From IMG/VR virus record IMGVR_UViG_3300032308_000708, positions 1-40,864 of that record: 40,864 nt of DNA; one strand, written 5' to 3'. The stretch comes from a virus. This document shows, in pieces, positions 9,745 to 34,725 of the stretch (the stretch's first letter is position 1; each line of letters starts with the position of its first letter). The position numbers and the translations under genes are program-made. Under the pieces are notes generated by a model. It worked only from the letters and a program-made list of their open reading frames with translations, did no database searches and was not told the origin of the DNA.

Positions 9745-10680
9745 ATGCGTAAAGTCTTTTCAATTGATGGTGGCGCTGGCAGAGTCATCGCCGCCATCCC
9801 TGCCTTAGAAAAATATGTAAGAAACAATCCTAAAGAAGATGTAAAGATCCTAATTTATGGTTGGGACAATCTTCTTTGGGGTAATACTTTACTACAGGAC
9901 ATCACCTTCAATCCCGATACCAAGGGTATTTGGGAACTATTTTTGAAGGATGCTGATGTTATTGTTACTCCAGAACCTTATCGTGTTCCTGGTTATTACA
10001 ACCAGAAACTATCTCTTGCAGAAGCATTTGATAAAGAGATTAATAACACAGACGATCATTCTGATCTAACCATTCCAAGACTTTACACAAACAAGGCAGA
10101 AGAAAAGAATGCCGCCAATCTTATTGCTGATGTTAAGGCACAGCAAAAGAAAGACAAGACTATTGTTATCCAGCCATATGGTCGTTCTGCAAGAGTTGAT
10201 CGCAATGATATCATTGATGATAGTTCCCGTGGTTTAGACTCCACAGCATATCTCTCCTTGGTTAAGAAACTCTCCACTAAGTATAATCTCATTTTATTTG
10301 CGGAAAAGCAGTTTCATCAACCACAAGATACTTACACATTTAAACTAGAGGCTGATCTAAGGTTCTGGTCTGCCATCATTGAGGCGGCCGATTATTTTGT
10401 TGGTTGTGATTCTGTTGGTCAGCATATGGCTCGGGTCTTTGATAAACCAGGTACAGTTTTCATTGGTTCAACATATCCTATTAATGTAAGTTATCCAGAT
10501 TGGTTTAATATCATTGAGAAGGAAGGTGTTGCTAAGAAGTATTCGCCTATTCGTGTTTGCGGCCTTGATGCACATCTGGCAGACCGTTATAACGATAAAT
10601 GCATGGATTATTCAGAAGAAGAGGTCCATGAAATCTTTATGAAAATTGTTAAAGATATTGAAAATAAGGTGGGCAAATAA
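9745..10680 (+). CDS. GT9-like (heptosyltransferase-fold) glycosyltransferase
   Basis: A 311-residue protein resembling the ADP-heptose:LPS heptosyltransferase / GT9 group. The N-terminal half starts MRKVFSIDGGAGRVIAAIPAL, like the GG(I/L)GDxxxAxPA opening of GT9 enzymes. The C-terminal half has a nucleotide-sugar-binding segment, VIQPYGRS near residue 141, and the family-like DxxxxHxA segment FVGCDSVGQHMA at 218-229 followed by TVFIGSTYP. It would be cytoplasmic and transfer an activated sugar. The ADP-heptose genes on the facing strand make heptose a plausible donor, but substrate and acceptor are inferred. GGAG lies seven bases before the ATG. The next gene starts one base after its stop. 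Confidence 0.6.
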   Translation: MRKVFSIDGGAGRVIAAIPALEKYVRNNPKEDVKILIYGWDNLLWGNTLLQDITFNPDTKGIWELFLKDADVIVTPEPYRVPGYYNQKLSLAEAFDKEINNTDDHSDLTIPRLYTNKAEEKNAANLIADVKAQQKKDKTIVIQPYGRSARVDRNDIIDDSSRGLDSTAYLSLVKKLSTKYNLILFAEKQFHQPQDTYTFKLEADLRFWSAIIEAADYFVGCDSVGQHMARVFDKPGTVFIGSTYPINVSYPDWFNIIEKEGVAKKYSPIRVCGLDAHLADRYNDKCMDYSEEEVHEIFMKIVKDIENKVGK

Positions 10681-10681
10681 T

Positions 10682-12415
10682 ATGACATATAATGTTTTAG
10701 GTATTAATCCAGGACACAATGGTTCTGCTGCACTTACTGTTGATGGAGAACTTGTTTATTACCTTGAAGAAGAAAGATTAACAAGACAAAAATATGACGG
10801 TAATCCATTTAGAACGATTTTAGATATTCTATCTAAGTGGCATGTTGATGAAGTTGTCGTCGGTGGTACAAATTGTGCTAAACCTGAACTATCATGGACA
10901 AGAGAAGAACCTAATTACGCTCTTGTTAGAAAATTTAATAAGAATGTAAAGTTCACAGACCTGAGAGACGAACACCATCTATCTCATTCACTGACCGCCT
11001 TTTATAATTCAGGATTTGATAAGGCAATTGTTGTTGTAGCAGATGGTGCAGGATCCTTTAAAGTGGAGCAAATAGAACCAGATAACTTTGCTGAAGGTTA
11101 TGAGGCCGAATCAGTTTGGGTAATGGAATATCCTTTATCAGCAAAGTTACTGTATAAGTCTTATGGAGTACCAAGAGTTAAGAATGATGTTTGGTCTTTC
11201 AAATTTCCACATCATAATATTTTAGATTTTGATGATGCTATCACAGTAACCAAAACATATGAAGCGGCAACTCAGTATCTAGGATTTGGATTTATAGAAG
11301 CAGGAAAAACTATGGGATTATCTTCCTATGGTAAAGAAGATCCTAGACTACCGGAGTTATATAAAGGTAATAGAGGAAGCAGAGATGTGTTTTTAACATT
11401 CTTGCCTGCTGGTGCTATCATTGATGAAAAGAGAAATGAAATCTTTAGGAGAGATTATAATCCTTTAGAATGGCATAAAGATCCAACCAAACTATCCGAT
11501 ATTGAAAAGAATTTAGCTTGGAAAATTCAGAATGAAACACAAAAGATTATTGCTAGGTATATTGAATTTTCTGTAGAGGCGACAGGAATAAAAAATGTTT
11601 GTGTCGTTGGTGGATATGGATTAAATTGTGTGGCCAATTACTATTTCAAGAAAGTTTTACCAGATATTAATATCTACAACGAACCTGTTTCACATGATGG
11701 AGGAACAGCAATTGGACTAGCCAAGTTTGGATGGTATAATAAATTACGAGAAAAAGGTGAAGAGGCAAAAATACATCCAATTAAAACATTATATCTTGGA
11801 CCAAAATATGATCCTAAAGATATTGAAAAAACTCTAGAAAGTCATTCGGAAAAAATTAAAACAAAAAAAGTTACTTATGATGATATTGCCAAACTAATAT
11901 CAGAAAAGAATATTGTTGCAATGTACCAGGGACAATCCGAAGCGGGCCCAAGAGCATTAGGTAACAGATCCATTCTATATGATCCAACTGATCCTGATGG
12001 TAAAGATTTTGTTAATACTGTAAAAGGTAGAGAATGGTTTAGACCATTTGCTGGTACCGTTCTACAGGAAGATGCAAATGATTGGTTTGATATGGCGGGA
12101 ATGGACGAAAGTCCGTTTATGATGTATGCTGTGAATGTTGCTGCGGATAAGATTGATCAGATTCCATCAATCTGTCATGTTGATGATACTTGCCGTATTC
12201 AGACAGTCACGGAAGATCAGAATAAACATTATTATAATCTAATCAAGTCATTCAAGGGTATTACCGGTGTACCAATTCTATTCAACACATCTTTTAACCT
12301 TGCTGGTGACCCACTGGTAGAAACGGTAGAAGATGCTTTAGACACCCTCTACCGTTCTAAAATGAATTACTTATATCTCCCAGAATTGGGACTATTGGTC
12401 GAGAAATCAGTCTAA
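10682..12415 (+). CDS. NodU/CmcH-family carbamoyltransferase
   Basis: A 577-residue O-carbamoyltransferase, which moves carbamoyl from carbamoyl phosphate to a hydroxyl, usually on a sugar. Start chosen at the ATG at 10682 (MTYNVLGINPGHNGSAAL); an open frame extends 12 codons upstream, but that would overlap the previous gene and lacks the family start. The N-terminal ASKHA-fold domain shows GINPGHNGSA (7-16), YYLEEERLTR (26-35), the metal-site HHLSH (98-102) and VVGGYGLNC (308-316). The C-terminal domain from about 405 shows QSEAGPRALGNRSIL (418-432), FRPFAGTVL and PILFNTSFN (531-539). Both domains are complete. It is probably cotranscribed with the glycosyltransferase. Its last nine bases overlap convergently with the end of gmhB. 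Acceptor unknown. Confidence 0.85.
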   Translation: MTYNVLGINPGHNGSAALTVDGELVYYLEEERLTRQKYDGNPFRTILDILSKWHVDEVVVGGTNCAKPELSWTREEPNYALVRKFNKNVKFTDLRDEHHLSHSLTAFYNSGFDKAIVVVADGAGSFKVEQIEPDNFAEGYEAESVWVMEYPLSAKLLYKSYGVPRVKNDVWSFKFPHHNILDFDDAITVTKTYEAATQYLGFGFIEAGKTMGLSSYGKEDPRLPELYKGNRGSRDVFLTFLPAGAIIDEKRNEIFRRDYNPLEWHKDPTKLSDIEKNLAWKIQNETQKIIARYIEFSVEATGIKNVCVVGGYGLNCVANYYFKKVLPDINIYNEPVSHDGGTAIGLAKFGWYNKLREKGEEAKIHPIKTLYLGPKYDPKDIEKTLESHSEKIKTKKVTYDDIAKLISEKNIVAMYQGQSEAGPRALGNRSILYDPTDPDGKDFVNTVKGREWFRPFAGTVLQEDANDWFDMAGMDESPFMMYAVNVAADKIDQIPSICHVDDTCRIQTVTEDQNKHYYNLIKSFKGITGVPILFNTSFNLAGDPLVETVEDALDTLYRSKMNYLYLPELGLLVEKSV

Positions 12416-13084
12416 AGACTCAGCAAACTCTAAAAGATTGTTAAACACCTTTGTCGCCTTTTTAAGGTCCTTATTGGCAAAGGTGTTTAACTTTTCTTCC
12501 GTTTCATCACCATGGCCTGTCTTAACAAGAATAGGTTTAGCACCAATATTAGATGCTGCCTTTAGATCACTCATTTTATCACCTACATACCAACCTTCAG
12601 AAAACTTAATACCTCCTGGTAGTTCTTTTTCTGCCCGTCTAAACATACCAATATTAGGCTTGGCATATTCATCATCTTTAAGATTTGTTGTAGAATAGTA
12701 TAAACCGTCAATACTAAAGATACCTGCCTGTCCAAAGATTTGCATCAGATATTGATGAATCGCATCTACCTGTTGGATTGTCTGTAGGCCTTTATGAATG
12801 CCTCCTTGATTGGTTAGAATAACAATCTTATATCCTTTGAGGCGCATCATACGAATTGCTTCTAATGAACCTGGAATAGGATGAACTTGACTAGAATCTG
12901 TGATATAGTTACCCATATCTTGAATGATAGTACCGTCTCTATCTAATCCAATAACCGGCTTTGGAAAGAACTGAGGCCACTCACTAGGATTAAACTGACC
13001 CTGTGGTTGAACTGGCATTCCAGGTTGCTGCATTTGTTGCTGAGGTGGTAATTCACTCACAGGTACACTTGTAAATCGTCCCAT
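12407..13084 (-). CDS. gmhB: D-glycero-D-manno-heptose 1,7-bisphosphate phosphatase-like (HAD)
   Basis: A 225-residue HAD-superfamily phosphatase, the GmhB step of ADP-heptose synthesis. The catalytic loop is GLDRDGTI (Asp48 nucleophile, Asp50 acid/base), motif II is ILTNQGGI (Thr91), then KPNIGMFRR (Lys143), and the metal site is YVGDKMSDLKAA (Asp169, Asp173). Two oddities: residues 1-40 are a Pro/Gln-rich extension absent from typical GmhB, and the Cys/His zinc loop of E. coli GmhB is missing. A related HAD histidinol-phosphate phosphatase role is possible from sequence alone; the HldE and HldD neighbours favour GmhB. Its start overlaps the hldD stop by one base. A perfect 14-base inverted repeat lies inside the 3' end. 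Confidence 0.8.
   Translation of the reverse strand: MGRFTSVPVSELPPQQQMQQPGMPVQPQGQFNPSEWPQFFPKPVIGLDRDGTIIQDMGNYITDSSQVHPIPGSLEAIRMMRLKGYKIVILTNQGGIHKGLQTIQQVDAIHQYLMQIFGQAGIFSIDGLYYSTTNLKDDEYAKPNIGMFRRAEKELPGGIKFSEGWYVGDKMSDLKAASNIGAKPILVKTGHGDETEEKLNTFANKDLKKATKVFNNLLEFAESLD
12440..12491. terminator. Perfect 14-bp inverted repeat, possible bidirectional terminator
   Basis: GTTAAACACCTTTG (12440-12453) and its exact complement CAAAGGTGTTTAAC (12478-12491) flank a 24-base loop that itself contains a small CCTT/AAGG stem. On the + strand the right arm is followed by TTTTCTT, so it could end the carbamoyltransferase transcript 25-80 bases past its stop. On the - strand it lies in the last codons of gmhB and is followed by a weaker T-rich run. 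The repeat is directly visible; the terminator role is inferred. Confidence 0.5.
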
Positions 13085-13872
13085 TATAAATCTCCTAATA
13101 CATATTCTTCTATTGATTTAAACTTGTGTTGTATGAAATGATTTCTAGCACAGGTATAATACTGATACTTTCCTTCTAGATGTTTTGGAAAGGGAATGTA
13201 TTCTATAGTAGCATTATATTTATCTGCTATAATTTCAGCAACTCTTTCAAAAGACCTTGCCACACCTGTACCAACATCATAGATACCTGATGGTTTATTC
13301 ATTAACATACAGTCAATAATATCTTCAACCCATATAAAGTCTCTCATGTATGCTTTAGAGTTTTCAAACAGTTTAATTACACCGTTTTCTTTTGACTGTT
13401 TAGTAAACATGTGAACCGGACTGGCCTGATTACCTTTATGATCTTCATGTTTACCAAAAACATTAAAGAATCTATACCCCTGTATTCTTACAAACTTGTC
13501 TATGTTATCTTCAACCCATTTATCAATAGTGGCCTTAGACATAGCATAATAATTTAATGGGTTGATACATCTATTATAGTTTGGTGATGTTCCATACACG
13601 GACGCGGACGAGGCATACTTAACAGGAATACCAAACTCAATTGCTATTTTAAATAGTTCTATAGAGTATTGAATATTATATGTATGAATACTATCAAGGT
13701 CGGTACAAGTGGTATCAGAGATAGCACCAATATGCCAAATCTCATCTATCTCATCCCAAGGTATTGTAAGAAGGTCTTTCAAACAGGTATCTTTTTCAGA
13801 TAGGTATAGATTATCAAATCTATTGGCAATGTTTTGACCTATGAATCCTTTATGTCCTGTAACTAAAATCAT
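13084..13872 (-). CDS. hldD: ADP-glyceromanno-heptose 6-epimerase-like SDR
   Basis: A 262-residue NAD(P)-dependent extended short-chain dehydrogenase/epimerase. The nucleotide site is VTGHKGFIG (4-12); the catalytic set is ASSASVYG (87-94) and Y109-x-x-x-K113 in NYYAMSK. HldD-specific marks are GAISDTT (49-55), RFFNVFGKHEDHKG (134-147), MRDFIWVED (176-184) and PFPKHLEGKYQYYT (227-240), matching the heptose epimerase more closely than GalE or RmlB. E. coli HldD is about 310 residues, so this is a compact form. In the pathway it converts ADP-D,D-heptose to ADP-L,D-heptose. The ATG overlaps the cupin stop by four bases. Confidence 0.82.
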   Translation of the reverse strand: MILVTGHKGFIGQNIANRFDNLYLSEKDTCLKDLLTIPWDEIDEIWHIGAISDTTCTDLDSIHTYNIQYSIELFKIAIEFGIPVKYASSASVYGTSPNYNRCINPLNYYAMSKATIDKWVEDNIDKFVRIQGYRFFNVFGKHEDHKGNQASPVHMFTKQSKENGVIKLFENSKAYMRDFIWVEDIIDCMLMNKPSGIYDVGTGVARSFERVAEIIADKYNATIEYIPFPKHLEGKYQYYTCARNHFIQHKFKSIEEYVLGDL

Positions 13873-14216
13873 TGTCCGTCTCCTGGCATAACTCTATAAC
13901 TATCATTATCATAATGTGTGGTTGATGCTTCTATAAGAACCGAATTGTCCTCTAGAGCCTCAATCTGATGTGGTTTACCAGGTTCATTTACCCAAGTATC
14001 ACCTTCTCTCAAAATAACATCATGTATGGAGGCATCGTTTGTTTCTATCCAACGAATCTTAAACATACCTTTTTGAACATAAAATGTTTCATGTTTCTTC
14101 ATATGGAAATGCATTGACCCTTTTGAACCGGCCTTGTCGTGTATAAGGAGTTTACCACAATACATTTCATTATTGGCAAAGATGACCTCTCTACCCCATT
14201 TCTTTTCAACAATCAT
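13869..14216 (-). CDS. Single-domain cupin, sugar-isomerase-like
   Basis: A 115-residue cupin. The metal-site motif is GSMHFHMKKHETFYVQKG, with His36, His38, His42/Glu43 and then His83 in PGKPHQIEAL. The opening WGREVIF and the SMHFHxxKxE core resemble the cupin half of type II phosphomannose isomerases and stand-alone sugar-phosphate cupins. It sits inside the heptose operon, overlapping the end of hldE by 11 bases and the start of hldD by four, so it probably acts on a sugar in the same pathway. Whether it isomerises a heptose, edits a nucleotide sugar or only binds cannot be read from the sequence. Confidence 0.7.
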   Translation of the reverse strand: MIVEKKWGREVIFANNEMYCGKLLIHDKAGSKGSMHFHMKKHETFYVQKGMFKIRWIETNDASIHDVILREGDTWVNEPGKPHQIEALEDNSVLIEASTTHYDNDSYRVMPGDGQ

Positions 14217-15381
14217 TAATCTTCTCCACCATTTTGGTCGTTGAATAACCTTCTAAAAATGGAATTAGTTCAACATTTGCGATATCATTACCAACTACTT
14301 CTTCCTTGGTTTTGTAATCACCACCTTTTGTAATTATATCAGGTTGTATTCGTTTAATCAAGTCATAAGGTGTATCTTCATCAAAAATAATAACCTCATC
14401 TACACATTTGAGACTCTCTAAAACTCTTTTACGGTCATCTTGATTATTATAAGGTTTGTTTTCACCTTTAAGTCTTTTAACGGAATCATCAGAGTTTAGT
14501 CCAATAATAAGGTAATCACCAAGTTCTTTTGACTTTTCAAGATATGTAACATGGCCTCGGTGAATAAAGTCAAAACATCCGTTAGTAAAAATTACTTTCT
14601 TTTCTACAGAACGAATATCTTCTTGTGTTAATGTATATGTTCCAAACTTACAAACGGATAAAGATGCCAACTTATTAGCCAACTCACAAGCATTATAGAT
14701 TGATTTACCTTTGGCGAGATAATAAGTCATAGCAGCAATAAACACATCACCAGCACCAGTTACATCGGAGACCTGCGTAGAATGACCTGGAATGTTCTGT
14801 ATACCATCTTCCGATACAATAGTAACACCTTCACCACCTTTTGTTATAACAAGTGTTCCTATATTATAAAACTTCCTTGTTTCTTGATACCCACCTTCAA
14901 TCATAGAAAACCTATGATATTCGGATTCATTAAGTTTTATAATATCAGCACCTTCATAGTTAACCAAACTTTTCTTTGGATCAACTATAACAATCTTACC
15001 TTGTTCTTTCAGAGAATGAACTAACTGCTGACTTTTAGAGAGAACACCTTTATTATAATCGGAGAGAATGACATATTTGGTTTCTTCAGGAAATTCTATT
15101 TGAGAAATATCAGCGGTGCTAGTCTTATCTTCATCCACACGGAACATAATATGGTTATCACACACATATCTTTTCTTGATACTATATTCTTTATTATCAA
15201 AGAAATAATCAACATAAGCACCTAAGGCCATTAGGTTGTTATTAACATTAGAGGCACCACCGGCCTTACATTCTTCTCGGGTAATATCAAAGATAGGAAG
15301 AGGAGACTCTGGAGAGAACCGATTCATTTTTCCATAAATATAGATGTCAGTTATATGATCACCAATAAGACCGATTTTCAT
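14206..15381 (-). CDS. hldE: Bifunctional heptose 7-phosphate kinase / heptose 1-phosphate adenylyltransferase
   Basis: A 391-residue two-domain enzyme. Residues 1-250 are a PfkB/ribokinase-type kinase: GDHITDIYIYG (7-17), the substrate-side CKAGGASNVNNNL (38-50), and the anion-hole/catalytic motif DVTGAGDVF (206-214, Asp212 base). Residues 262-391 are a cytidylyltransferase-like nucleotidyltransferase: TNGCFDFIHRGHV (266-278, with the HxGH at 274-277), RVLESLKCVDEV, IITKGGDY and a FLEGYSTT end (375-382). This order is specific to HldE (RfaE), which phosphorylates heptose 7-phosphate and adenylates heptose 1-phosphate. E. coli HldE is about 477 residues, so the kinase half is trimmed, but the motifs are intact. 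GGAG lies seven bases before the ATG. First gene of the - strand operon. Confidence 0.9.
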   Translation of the reverse strand: MKIGLIGDHITDIYIYGKMNRFSPESPLPIFDITREECKAGGASNVNNNLMALGAYVDYFFDNKEYSIKKRYVCDNHIMFRVDEDKTSTADISQIEFPEETKYVILSDYNKGVLSKSQQLVHSLKEQGKIVIVDPKKSLVNYEGADIIKLNESEYHRFSMIEGGYQETRKFYNIGTLVITKGGEGVTIVSEDGIQNIPGHSTQVSDVTGAGDVFIAAMTYYLAKGKSIYNACELANKLASLSVCKFGTYTLTQEDIRSVEKKVIFTNGCFDFIHRGHVTYLEKSKELGDYLIIGLNSDDSVKRLKGENKPYNNQDDRKRVLESLKCVDEVIIFDEDTPYDLIKRIQPDIITKGGDYKTKEEVVGNDIANVELIPFLEGYSTTKMVEKINDC

Positions 15382-15404
15382 TCCGAAACTCCATTACCAA
15401 GTTA

Positions 15405-15412
15405 TATAAATA
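15405..15412 (+). promoter_or_regulatory. T4-type late promoter before gp13
   Basis: Exact T4 late promoter octamer TATAAATA, 28 bases upstream of the gp13 ATG. It is the best match in the window to the sequence read by gp55-containing RNA polymerase in T4. Confidence 0.75.
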
Positions 15413-15437
15413 TATAGCAAAGCATGTAGAAGGTCAA
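15409..15437 (-). promoter_or_regulatory. Sigma70-type promoter for the heptose operon
   Basis: Read on the - strand: TTGACC (15437-15432), a 17-base spacer, then TATATT (15414-15409). Each hexamer matches the sigma70 consensus at five of six positions. Transcription would start about 20-25 bases before the hldE ATG, which has its own GGAG. The -10 overlaps the opposite-strand late promoter of gp13. Confidence 0.6.
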
Positions 15438-15440
15438 GAT

Positions 15441-16193: not shown

Positions 16194-17084
16194 ATGCCCG
16201 TCAACGGATACTTTAACAACTTTCCAGGTGAAAATAGGTTCAATAACGAACATCGGTTGATGGAAGATGTTATTGTAGAATCCATTCAAATCATGGGCCA
16301 TAATGTATGGTATATTCCTAGAGAATCATTTGATAATATGGATATGATTTTCGGAGAGGCCACCAAAGTTATATTCAATCGCGCCTATATGGTTGAGGCC
16401 TATATTGCTAATGTTGAAGGTTTTGAAGGTGACGGAGATTTCTTTTCTAAGTTTGGTTTAGAAATTAGAGATAGTTCTAACTTTATTCTTTCACGCAGAT
16501 CATTTTCTAAGATTATTCCATCTACATTAAGAGAACGACCTCAAGAAGGAGACCTTGTTTGGGTTCCTCTTATGCATCGTATGTTTGAGATTAAGTTTAT
16601 TGAAAAGAAGTTGATGTTTTATTCCGTAGGTAATAGACAACCATTCGTCTATGAAATGCGTTGTGAGGACTTCCGCTTCTCAGAAGAAATCATGGATACT
16701 GGTGTTGAGGATATTGATCAGATCGGTGAAGATAACGCCTATACAATGAAACTCAATCTGGCAACTACAGGTGTAAGATCATTTATTGATAACGAAATTG
16801 TATTCCAAAGTCCTGATGGAACATGGGCCAATAATACAGCAAAAGCCACTATTAGTGAATGGTATGCTGCCAATGGCACTATGCTTATTCACGACATTGC
16901 AGGAACATTTGCTGCTAACACTAATTTATATGGTAATACATCAATGGCTAGATTTAATACAATTTCAGTTGGTGATGAAAAACTAGACCTTGTTCCGAAT
17001 GACTTCTTTAATAATGATGACTTTAATACAGATACGACACTCATTTTAGATTTGAGTGAAATTAATCCGTTTGGAAAACCTTAA
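16194..17084 (+). CDS. gp14: Neck protein gp14
   Basis: A 296-residue protein matching T4-like gp14, the partner of gp13 in the neck (head-to-tail connector). The conserved opening is NGYFNN, EHRLMEDVIVESIQIMGHN, WYIPRES, then FGEATKVIFNRAYMVEAYI, RRSFSK and RPQEGDLVWVPLM. The C-terminal part (about residue 190 onward) is beta-rich with Asn/Thr stretches. It ends in TAATG, and the ATG of the next ORF (the homing endonuclease) lies in this overlap. By comparison with relatives, this ATG position is where gp15 would be expected to start. Confidence 0.9.
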   Translation: MPVNGYFNNFPGENRFNNEHRLMEDVIVESIQIMGHNVWYIPRESFDNMDMIFGEATKVIFNRAYMVEAYIANVEGFEGDGDFFSKFGLEIRDSSNFILSRRSFSKIIPSTLRERPQEGDLVWVPLMHRMFEIKFIEKKLMFYSVGNRQPFVYEMRCEDFRFSEEIMDTGVEDIDQIGEDNAYTMKLNLATTGVRSFIDNEIVFQSPDGTWANNTAKATISEWYAANGTMLIHDIAGTFAANTNLYGNTSMARFNTISVGDEKLDLVPNDFFNNDDFNTDTTLILDLSEINPFGKP

Positions 17085-17635
17085 TGCGAAATAGATGTTA
17101 CAGAAAAATATACGAACGATATCATGGTTCTATTCCTAAGGACAATAAAGGTCGTTCATTTGAAATTCATCATATTGACGGAAATCATGATAATAATGAT
17201 ATAACTAATTTGATGGCTGTTAGTATCGAGGAACATTATAAAATACATAAAGAACAAGGAGACCTTGGTGCATGTTGGTTAATGTCTCCGAGATTAGAAC
17301 TTGATGCACAGGAAATGTCTCTTTTAGGGAGAGAAATGGCTCTGAGATCCTTACCAAGATCAGAAGATTGGAAAAGAAAGCAAAGAGAATCGCAAAAGAA
17401 ACGCATCAGAAAACCACATTCCGAAGAAACCAAACTAAAAATTAGTAAGGCAAATTTAGGTAAAATATCTCCAAATAAAGGTATACCTATGAGTGAGGAA
17501 AATAAACAAAAGAGAAGAAAACCTAAACTCAATACAGAAAATTATAGAAAACCTAAATCAGAAGAACATAAACAAAAAATGAGAGAGTCTGCTAAATTAG
17601 CATGGCAAAAGAGGAGAGACTCAAATTCTAGGTAA
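17084..17635 (+). CDS. HNH homing endonuclease inserted between gp14 and gp15
   Basis: A 183-residue free-standing homing endonuclease. The HNH nuclease is at residues 26-55: EIHHIDGNHDNNDITNLMAVS with His29/His30, Asn38 and Asn42, and then His51. Residues 105-175 are Lys/Arg-rich and hold three repeats of the S-E-E-x-K-x-K-[IM] type that resemble NUMOD3 DNA-binding modules, a combination common in phage homing endonucleases. Such enzymes cut a relative lacking the insert and spread into it. It starts in the TAATG of gp14 without a strong ribosome-binding site. Its last 11 bases overlap the likely start of gp15. No room for a group I intron core is seen outside the ORF, so it is treated as an intronless insertion. 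Confidence 0.88.
   Translation: MRNRCYRKIYERYHGSIPKDNKGRSFEIHHIDGNHDNNDITNLMAVSIEEHYKIHKEQGDLGACWLMSPRLELDAQEMSLLGREMALRSLPRSEDWKRKQRESQKKRIRKPHSEETKLKISKANLGKISPNKGIPMSEENKQKRRKPKLNTENYRKPKSEEHKQKMRESAKLAWQKRRDSNSR
17610..17616 (+). promoter_or_regulatory. Ribosome-binding site that decides the gp15 start
   Basis: AGAGGAG inside the 3' end of the homing endonuclease gene, eight bases before an ATT codon at 17625 in the gp15 frame. The next ATG (17688) has only a weak GGTAG upstream, so this site points to initiation at or near 17625. Confidence 0.5.
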
Positions 17636-23620: not shown

Positions 23621-24226
23621 ATGGCATTTAATGTTAACGATTTTAGAGCATCACTGTTTAACGACGGCGCACGCCCAAGTTTATTCGAGGTGGTTATGAC
23701 TCTACCTCCGTTGGTTGGAATTGGTGCCGTTCTTGATCAAGAAGTCCGCTTCAAAGCAAGAGCAACATCTTTACCAGGCGACAACATTTCATCAATCGTT
23801 GTTCCATACTTCGGTCGTGAAATTAAAGTAGCAGGCACCAGAACTTTTCCAGACTGGTCTATTACAGTTATTAATGATGAGAACTTTAGAATCCGTAATA
23901 ATCTAGAACTTTGGATGAGCGGAATCAATTCTCATGTTAATAACCGTAGAGCTGCGGCACTAACAACTGCGGCATCATATACAACAGATGCTTGGGTTTA
24001 TCAGTATAGCAAGAGCGGCGGCAACCCTCCTGTTGCTGGTGCTCCAACTGGTCTAGCGGTTCCTATTAAAGCCTATAGATTCGTTGGTTTGTTCCCAATC
24101 GATGTTGCTCCAATTGATCTTGATTGGGGTATGGGCGATCAGATTGAAGAGTTCGCAGTAACCTGGGCATATCAGTGGTGGGAATCAGACACAACCGATA
24201 GTGTCGGTATTGGCCCTATCGTTTAA
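23621..24226 (+). CDS. gp19: Tail tube protein gp19
   Basis: A 201-residue tube subunit that stacks into the inner tail tube through which DNA passes. Conserved T4-like gp19 signatures are DGARPSLFEV (near residue 15), FKARATSLPGDN, IVVPYFGREIKVAGTRTFPDW, TVINDENFRIRN, and a C-terminal PIDVAPIDLDWGMGDQIEEF, then AVTWAYQWWES. T4 gp19 is 163 residues; the extra length here lies mainly in an Ala/Gly-rich insert near residues 110-150. It directly follows the sheath gene, as in T4, and has its own late box and AAGGAG. Confidence 0.95.
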   Translation: MAFNVNDFRASLFNDGARPSLFEVVMTLPPLVGIGAVLDQEVRFKARATSLPGDNISSIVVPYFGREIKVAGTRTFPDWSITVINDENFRIRNNLELWMSGINSHVNNRRAAALTTAASYTTDAWVYQYSKSGGNPPVAGAPTGLAVPIKAYRFVGLFPIDVAPIDLDWGMGDQIEEFAVTWAYQWWESDTTDSVGIGPIV

Positions 24227-34197: not shown

Positions 34198-34725
34198 ATG
34201 ACTATAGAATCATTTGCGTCTAATACACCTGACAATACTAGTATTCTTCAAAGTACCAAGTTTACTTTTTTAATTCCTGATATGCCTTTTTTAAAGTATT
34301 TTTGTCAGACTGTGTATCTACCTTCTGTTTCTACATCAGAAGTTATGATTCCTACTCCTTTCTCCGCAACTTATAGACACGGTGATAAAATGGTATTTGA
34401 ACCGTTCACTGTTACCGCATTAATGGATGAAGACCTCCGTGTATGGGAAGAAACATATAAATGGATGAAATCATTAACAAGGCCATCTTCATATGATGAA
34501 TATGCCAGAAAAACTCCAAAAGATGTAATGACGCCTTTATATTTTGACGGTTTCTTAACCATAAACACAAACGCCAACCGATCTAATATTCGTATCAAAT
34601 TCCATAACTGTCATCCAACATCAATTGGTATGGTAAACTTTGATACAAAAGTGGATGCTGATGTTATTCCTACCGCAGACTTTACCTTCCGTTACGATAT
34701 CTTTGAGATTGAAAGATTAAATTGA
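34198..34725 (+). CDS. Tail-tube-fold structural protein (gp19-like paralogue)
   Basis: A 175-residue protein with the layout of tail-tube-type proteins: STKFTFLIPDMPFLKYFCQT, then VYLPSVSTSEVMIPTPF, HGDKMVFEPFTVTALMDEDL, RVWEETYKWMKSL and a C-terminal ADFTFRYDIFEIERL. The 'LPSVS ... TPF ... GDK-x-x-FEPFTV-x-x-x-x-DEDL' pattern parallels 'LPGDN ... FGREIKVAG ... DW-x-x-T-x-x-NDEN' in gp19. The same place, between gp23 and uvsY, is held in some relatives by the tail-completion gene gp3, so that name is possible by position, but the sequence looks more tube-like to me. It has its own late box and ends just before a sigma70 promoter. Confidence 0.6.
   Translation: MTIESFASNTPDNTSILQSTKFTFLIPDMPFLKYFCQTVYLPSVSTSEVMIPTPFSATYRHGDKMVFEPFTVTALMDEDLRVWEETYKWMKSLTRPSSYDEYARKTPKDVMTPLYFDGFLTINTNANRSNIRIKFHNCHPTSIGMVNFDTKVDADVIPTADFTFRYDIFEIERLN

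Follow-up and report, generated by a model that had tools for sequence, protein, structure and literature searches.

A cupin predicted to stand in for GmhA in the ADP-heptose cassette of a T4-like virus

Which protein carries out the first step of heptose synthesis in a virus whose ADP-heptose cassette has no gmhA gene? The question is raised by the IMG/VR record IMGVR_UViG_3300032308_000708, a 40.9-kb record (40,864 nucleotides, taken whole and called the window below) of a T4-like myovirus with genes for terminase, sheath, tube, portal, capsid and neck proteins and a late sigma factor. The original prediction for this DNA described four overlapping minus-strand genes for GmhB, HldD, a cupin and a two-domain HldE, and considered GmhA, the first isomerase, to be missing. 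In the present analysis, the cassette very probably encodes the whole ADP-heptose pathway, with a metal-dependent cupin standing in for GmhA, and the reaction of the cupin is deduced from gene replacement, fusions and its active site. The coordinates of the four genes are reproduced, with overlaps of 1, 4 and 11 bases between successive genes, and two plus-strand neighbours that had been left out of the operon are part of the unit:

9745-10680, + strand: GT9-like glycosyltransferase (phrog_8954), predicted heptosyltransferase from a homologue's profile match, an AlphaFold2 (AF2) model and co-occurrence
10646-12415, + strand: NodU/WapO-type O-carbamoyltransferase (Pfam Carbam_trans_C 202 bits, Carbam_trans_N 77 bits; phrog_1601 529 bits)
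12407-13084, - strand: GmhB-type HAD phosphatase (heptose 1,7-bisphosphate 7-phosphatase), 225 amino acids (PRK08942, 4pnh)
13084-13872, - strand: HldD, ADP-heptose 6-epimerase, 262 amino acids (TIGR02197, 1eq2, active-site residues)
13869-14216, - strand: cupin, predicted sedoheptulose-7-phosphate isomerase in place of GmhA, 115 amino acids
14206-15381, - strand: HldE, fused heptose-7-phosphate kinase and heptose-1-phosphate adenylyltransferase, 391 amino acids (PRK11316, TIGR02198, TIGR02199)

In the proposed pathway, the cupin would perform the first step, the isomerisation of sedoheptulose 7-phosphate, after which the HldE kinase would form the 1,7-bisphosphate, GmhB would strip the 7-phosphate, the HldE adenylyltransferase would yield ADP-D,D-heptose and HldD would epimerise this to ADP-L,D-heptose. 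The heptose would then be transferred by the GT9-like protein of the phage and the product carbamoylated by the carbamoyltransferase, as WapO does on the lipopolysaccharide (LPS) heptose of Pseudomonas. Steps 2 to 5 are the same as in the bacterial ADP-heptose pathway (GmhA-HldE-GmhB-HldD), whereas the first enzyme would be a cupin in the phage cassette and is the SIS-fold GmhA in bacteria.

The cupin at the isomerase position

A gmhA of the SIS type is absent from the window and from all 32 viral records tested (the window's own included), and on this point the original prediction holds. The cupin is present in most of the phage cassettes read. It has a heptose kinase within 4 kb at 39 of 53 viral loci and, in phage isolates, at 14 of 15, and GmhA within the same distance at 0 of 116 loci. 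The family occurs in the HldE (ADP-heptose) cassettes of P-SSM2, S-CAM1, S-SSM7 and P-TIM68, and in phage Bellamy it lies between HddA (279 bits) and HddC (62 bits) of the GDP-heptose pathway. ADP- and GDP-heptose synthesis have two steps in common, the isomerisation by GmhA and the dephosphorylation by GmhB, and no others. Since the cupin is found in both kinds of cassette and the phosphatase is already accounted for, the isomerase step remains for the cupin. The sole SIS gene recognised among the phage loci read, in SynMITS9220M01 (TIGR00441, 47 bits), adjoins an HddA-like kinase; the cupin of this phage is located elsewhere, beside a second gene annotated as a kinase.

The cupin profile was scanned over bacterial and archaeal genomes and then over 237 genomes of one DPANN archaeal phylum; these are metagenome-assembled genomes (MAGs), whose incompleteness may account for some absences. 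DPANN archaea carry operons of the form cupin-HldD-HldE_K-GmhB-HldE_N, with separate HldE halves. Across the 237 genomes, the kinase lies within 5 kb of the cupin in 13 genomes and within 5 kb of GmhA in 31; in no genome is it linked to both. Among the 62 archaeal genomes with an HldE kinase, 14 hold the cupin only, 36 GmhA only, 3 both and 9 neither (Fisher p = 1.1e-5, with presence thresholds fixed after the score distributions had been viewed and a test that ignores kinship), and under other thresholds the anticorrelation gives p = 3e-4 and 4e-6.

The exchange is also visible gene for gene. In the 50 archaeal loci read, otherwise matching operons differ in the gene at the isomerase position alone. 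One such pair consists of HddC/GmhA-HldE_K-GmhB-HldE_N (L217 or L222) and HddC/cupin-HldE_K-GmhB-HldE_N (L221), in which only the first operon gene is swapped and the other four genes are 65-80% identical. When the cupin label is mapped onto a tree of the HldE kinase (quick method), it changes at least 14 times; the swap is recurrent, since at least 5 of these changes are forced by the starred branches. Fusions of HldE_K to the cupin occur at L184, L185, L191, L207, L208, L234 and L244, and further fusions take the forms cupin-HldD (L170), cupin-HddC (L164) and GmhB-cupin-HldE_N (L246). GmhA is fused to the HldE kinase at the same C-terminal side as the cupin (L206, L209, L215). GmhA (at least 80 bits) lies near HddA in 5 of 6 genomes that also hold a linked cupin/HldE (L196-L200), as expected if GmhA serves the GDP-heptose pathway there. 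The original prediction had left the pathway without its first step and suggested that the cupin might add a step that bacteria lack. Both views are probably wrong: the cupin most likely supplies the first step, and its use as an additional step is rejected, since it swaps with GmhA.

The window protein has a cupin fold (model pLDDT 97) and no SIS-fold homology to GmhA, and nearly all of its profile aligns with the D-lyxose isomerases 2y0o and 7nzo. The sugar- and metal-binding residues of the Thermofilum D-lyxose isomerase (TsLI) are K62, H75, H77, K86, E88, H143, E156 and D163, and activity is abolished when the D-lyxose isomerase equivalents of K86, E156 or D163 are changed (PMC8378251). 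The cupin counterparts of the eight residues are K22, H36, H38, K41, E43, H83, E96 and D103/D105, a correspondence drawn from the printed 2y0o alignment and residue spacing, not from superposition. Across 29 mostly heptose-linked cupins, each of them except D103 is invariant. Judged by sequence, the cupin appears to hold the features of an aldose-ketose isomerase, with metal ligands (HxH, E and H), a catalytic Lys and Glu and a substrate Lys. The fold, the metal site and the catalytic Lys and Glu are shared with the D-lyxose isomerases 2y0o, 7nzo and 3kmh, which perform aldose-ketose isomerisation to the manno configuration, as predicted for the cupin. The cupin differs from them in its size (about 115 amino acids, against 171-223 residues in the lyxose isomerase structures, with 17-21% identity in structural alignments) and in its predicted substrate, a phosphorylated seven-carbon sugar. 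Sedoheptulose and D-glycero-D-manno-heptose are configured like fructose and mannose at the reacting carbons, and the chemistry of D-lyxose isomerase would therefore carry over.

Several observations weigh against the cupin as a dedicated replacement for GmhA. The top Foldseek match of its model is CapF, which is not an isomerase, and the invariant Asp lies two residues from the TsLI Asp position, the seven other residues corresponding directly. Both enzymes occur in 3 of the 62 archaeal genomes and neither in 9 (incomplete MAGs), and no phosphatase is recognised near the cupin on the contig of the close relatives L006 and L035. At only 13 of 48 cellular loci does the cupin have a heptose kinase within 4 kb, so the family is wider than heptose, and Binatota cupins adjoin GDP-mannose dehydratase. 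In one alternative, a host GmhA would perform the first step and the cupin would come in once the standard pathway is complete, as an epimerase or keto-isomerase of heptose or nucleoside diphosphate-heptose; the structurally matching CapF C-terminal domain and 3,4-ketoisomerase 2pa7 both use sugar nucleotides. Such a late role is nevertheless improbable: it leaves unexplained the swap with GmhA at the same operon position and fusion end without both ever being kinase-linked, as well as the service of the cupin in both ADP- and GDP-heptose cassettes, and some genomes with cupin fusions (G026, G027, G028) have no GmhA match at all. The cupin could also be a mannose-6-phosphate-type isomerase for another sugar, found with heptose genes merely through shared surface-sugar islands, as its good fold match to the archaeal phosphomannose isomerase 7zvm and the Binatota neighbours would allow. 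This is less probable still, given the direct adjacency and fusions to the HldE kinase, HldD and GmhB/HldE and the gene-for-gene exchange with GmhA, and no mannose pathway gene is recognised among the window genes scanned.

Replacement of GmhA by the cupin is thus the preferred reading for the heptose cassettes, and specificity may differ between subfamilies, with the Binatota copies perhaps acting on another manno-sugar such as mannose 6-phosphate. In two Deltaproteobacteria loci, L131 and L135 (the latter Candidatus Binatus), the cupin is directly beside GDP-mannose 4,6-dehydratase (L131 tested, L135 by eye). Cupin loci are also seen on phage-like contigs in GTDB genomes (L116, L143, L145, L146, L150, L153, L154), apparently binned or co-amplified with those genomes, which comprise Pelagibacter, Planctomycetaceae, a Prochlorococcus single amplified genome, Thaumarchaeota, Rhodobacteraceae and Euryarchaeota.

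The other heptose enzymes and the known cyanophage cluster

At the level of sequence, membership of HldE, HldD, GmhB and the carbamoyltransferase in their families is established, and NCBIfam profiles, solved relatives and catalytic motifs uphold the earlier HldE, HldD and GmhB assignments. HldE matches PRK11316 with 300 bits, its kinase domain TIGR02198 with 194 and its adenylyltransferase domain TIGR02199 with 177. HldD scores 214 bits with TIGR02197, under the equivalog cut-off of 274.6 bits, and GmhB 123.5 bits with PRK08942 against a cut-off of 178 bits; GmhB is closest to the heptose bisphosphatase among HAD-IIIA phosphatases and would presumably act on heptose 1,7-bisphosphate. The scores of the three proteins fall under the bacterial equivalog cut-offs because the proteins are shortened and divergent, and relative to E. 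coli, loops are lost in the HldE kinase (391 against 477 amino acids) and the HldD Rossmann domain (262 against 310). The closest solved structures are E. coli HldD 1eq2 for HldD (E = 3.8e-39), Burkholderia HldA 4e84 for the HldE kinase and Burkholderia GmhB 4pnh for GmhB. Catalytic motifs are kept in the kinase (TGAGD), the nucleotidyltransferase (HxGH) and GmhB (DxDGT and GDxxxD), and the HldD active site retains Y-x3-K plus the HKG lysine (Tyr and two Lys). E. coli HldE and HldD sequences served for the motif comparison, and that of HldE is also one row of the kinase tree; an E. coli GmhA sequence was used as a search seed. At its N-terminus, GmhB carries a 40-residue Pro/Gln-rich extension (12965-13084, -) outside the matched GmhB domain.

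This type of cassette is already known in cyanophages as 'LPS genes' (PMC3037559). The same paper, from 2010, pointed out that T4-GC 304, 305, 307 and 308 occur together and gave 'stuffer DNA' as one possible reading. The T4-GC 302-308 'LPS' cluster of P-SSM2, S-SSM7, S-CAM1 and S-CAM3 has the same gene set as the window (GC302 GT9-like, GC303 carbamoyltransferase, GC304/305 HldE halves, GC307 cupin, GC308 HldD) and, as in the window, lies near tail fibres, mostly near gp13. HldE is fused in the window and split into GC304/305 in the cluster, and the GmhB-type phosphatase of the window contrasts with the 110-amino-acid HAD phosphatase GC306. The cluster annotations read 'cysteine dioxygenase' for the cupin, hypothetical for GC302 and phosphoheptose isomerase for GC306. 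The last of these (phrog_1238) was considered as a GmhA and rejected, the copies tested being EcbF/BcbF-like HAD phosphatases of 103-114 amino acids. The misannotation recurs in RefSeq cyanophages, for example at L010 13312-13656 and L024 10026-10337 and 11667-11996, where the cupin of the heptose cassette likewise appears as 'cysteine dioxygenase' (phrog_7851). Transketolase-like genes lie just upstream of the heptose genes in cyanophages S-SM2 (L024) and P-TIM68 (L013) and possibly provide sedoheptulose 7-phosphate.

In the literature searched, GC307 was not found described as a cupin-type replacement for GmhA, and no source there joins cupin, heptose and gmhA; in two papers that name both a cupin and sedoheptulose 7-phosphate isomerase, each term appears once and seemingly in passing. 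The cyanophage gene cluster is known, and the predicted role of its cupin appears to be new. The prediction would give a function to this cupin family, whose members currently carry the labels 'cysteine dioxygenase' or 'nucleotidyltransferase', fill what looked like a hole in the heptose pathways of phages and archaea, and offer a clean case in which an enzyme has repeatedly given way to another that is unrelated to it. Because GmhA is under study as a target for antibiotics (PMC11056994, PMC5387315), a natural substitute matters in that it could bypass this target. The cassette also suggests that heptose, possibly in carbamoylated form, is among the sugars that phages make.

Probable transfer, carbamoylation and use of the heptose

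At all 14 loci where the GT9-like protein is recognised, it is accompanied by the carbamoyltransferase, HldE, HldD, the cupin and a HAD phosphatase. Searches with the window protein return no GT9 relative in Pfam, NCBIfam or PDB, nor in a PDB profile search; its link to GT9 comes from the S-CAM1 homologue, which matches Pfam Glyco_transf_9 with 22.0 bits, exactly at the 22-bit cut-off, and from an AF2 model whose top Foldseek matches are GT9 3tov, TibC, WaaC and WaaF. The medium confidence of this model (pLDDT 74) counts against the assignment, and the protein is predicted to be a heptosyltransferase from its modelled fold and co-inheritance. Cyanophage GT9-like proteins bear Pro/Gln-rich C-terminal tails. 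Both Pfam domains of the carbamoyltransferase score above cut-off, which places it in the NodU/WapO family, and Pseudomonas WapO carbamoylates LPS heptose (PMC8005017). The co-inheritance of the two genes suggests that heptose is transferred and then decorated, so that the phage probably makes, transfers and carbamoylates heptose. The carbamoyltransferase shares its family with the WapO/NodU enzymes, and the GT9-like protein is predicted to share that of the GT9 heptosyltransferases TibC and WaaC; unlike in those systems, the two are phage-encoded jointly with the full precursor pathway.

The destination of the sugar is less certain. There is about an even chance that the sugar goes onto the virion itself, where tail fibre or neck proteins would be heptosylated and carbamoylated. 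In the window, P-SSM2, S-CAM1, S-CAM3, S-SSM7 and Sf-FS3, the cassette is found near genes for tail fibres, mostly close to gp13, and the GT9 model resembles the protein heptosyltransferase TibC. Cyanobacterial LPS is reported to be without heptose (PMC4390846), so cyanophage cassettes would hardly feed the LPS core of the host. In S-SM2, S-T4 and Bellamy, however, the genes are within polysaccharide islands that hold other glycosyltransferases. A role at the cell surface, in which the infecting phage would alter the LPS or surface glycan of its host and might thereby block superinfection, is somewhat less than evenly likely. It has been proposed for the LPS genes of P-SSM2 (review PMC2984593) and would agree with the action of WapO on LPS heptose and with WaaC and WaaF among the fold matches, but the genes are placed in a virion block and the hosts of cyanophages are those reported to lack LPS heptose. 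No psbA is found in the window's own record or in ten related viral records, 11 in all, and the major capsid protein is nearest to those of Pelagibacter phage Mosig and Methylophilales phage Melnitz (64%). The broadest proposal, put forward tentatively at slightly below an even chance, is that the cupin represents a second, unrelated class of sedoheptulose-7-phosphate isomerase, spread over phages, DPANN archaea and candidate-phyla bacteria, and that phages thereby have a self-sufficient pathway of carbamoylated heptose for their own virions.

Expression signals and neighbouring genes

The heptose operon runs opposite to the late genes, and two groups of sites bear on its expression:

15382-15440: divergent promoter region in the HldE/gp13 intergenic stretch (consensus matches only)
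6390, 15405, 18628, 21825, 23593 and 30689, + strand: NATAAATA sites before gene starts

These six of the eight plus-strand NATAAATA sites are located 28-57 bp before gene starts and resemble T4 late promoters; at 15405 (+), TATAAATA stands 36 bp before gp13. The late motif ATAAATA, though it precedes several plus-strand structural genes, is not found before the heptose operon. Upstream of HldE, a sigma-70-like site (15437-15409, -) matches the consensus, in a region with no more promoter-like sites than its shuffles. The opposite strand, the absent late motif and this site are weakly compatible with early expression of the heptose operon.

Two further features were noted among the structural genes. 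An HNH homing endonuclease with a NUMOD3 motif (17084-17635, +) sits between gp14 and gp15, and two different copies of tail-tube homologues (phrog_45) occur, one after the sheath gene (23621-24226, +) and one after the major capsid gene (34198-34725, +).

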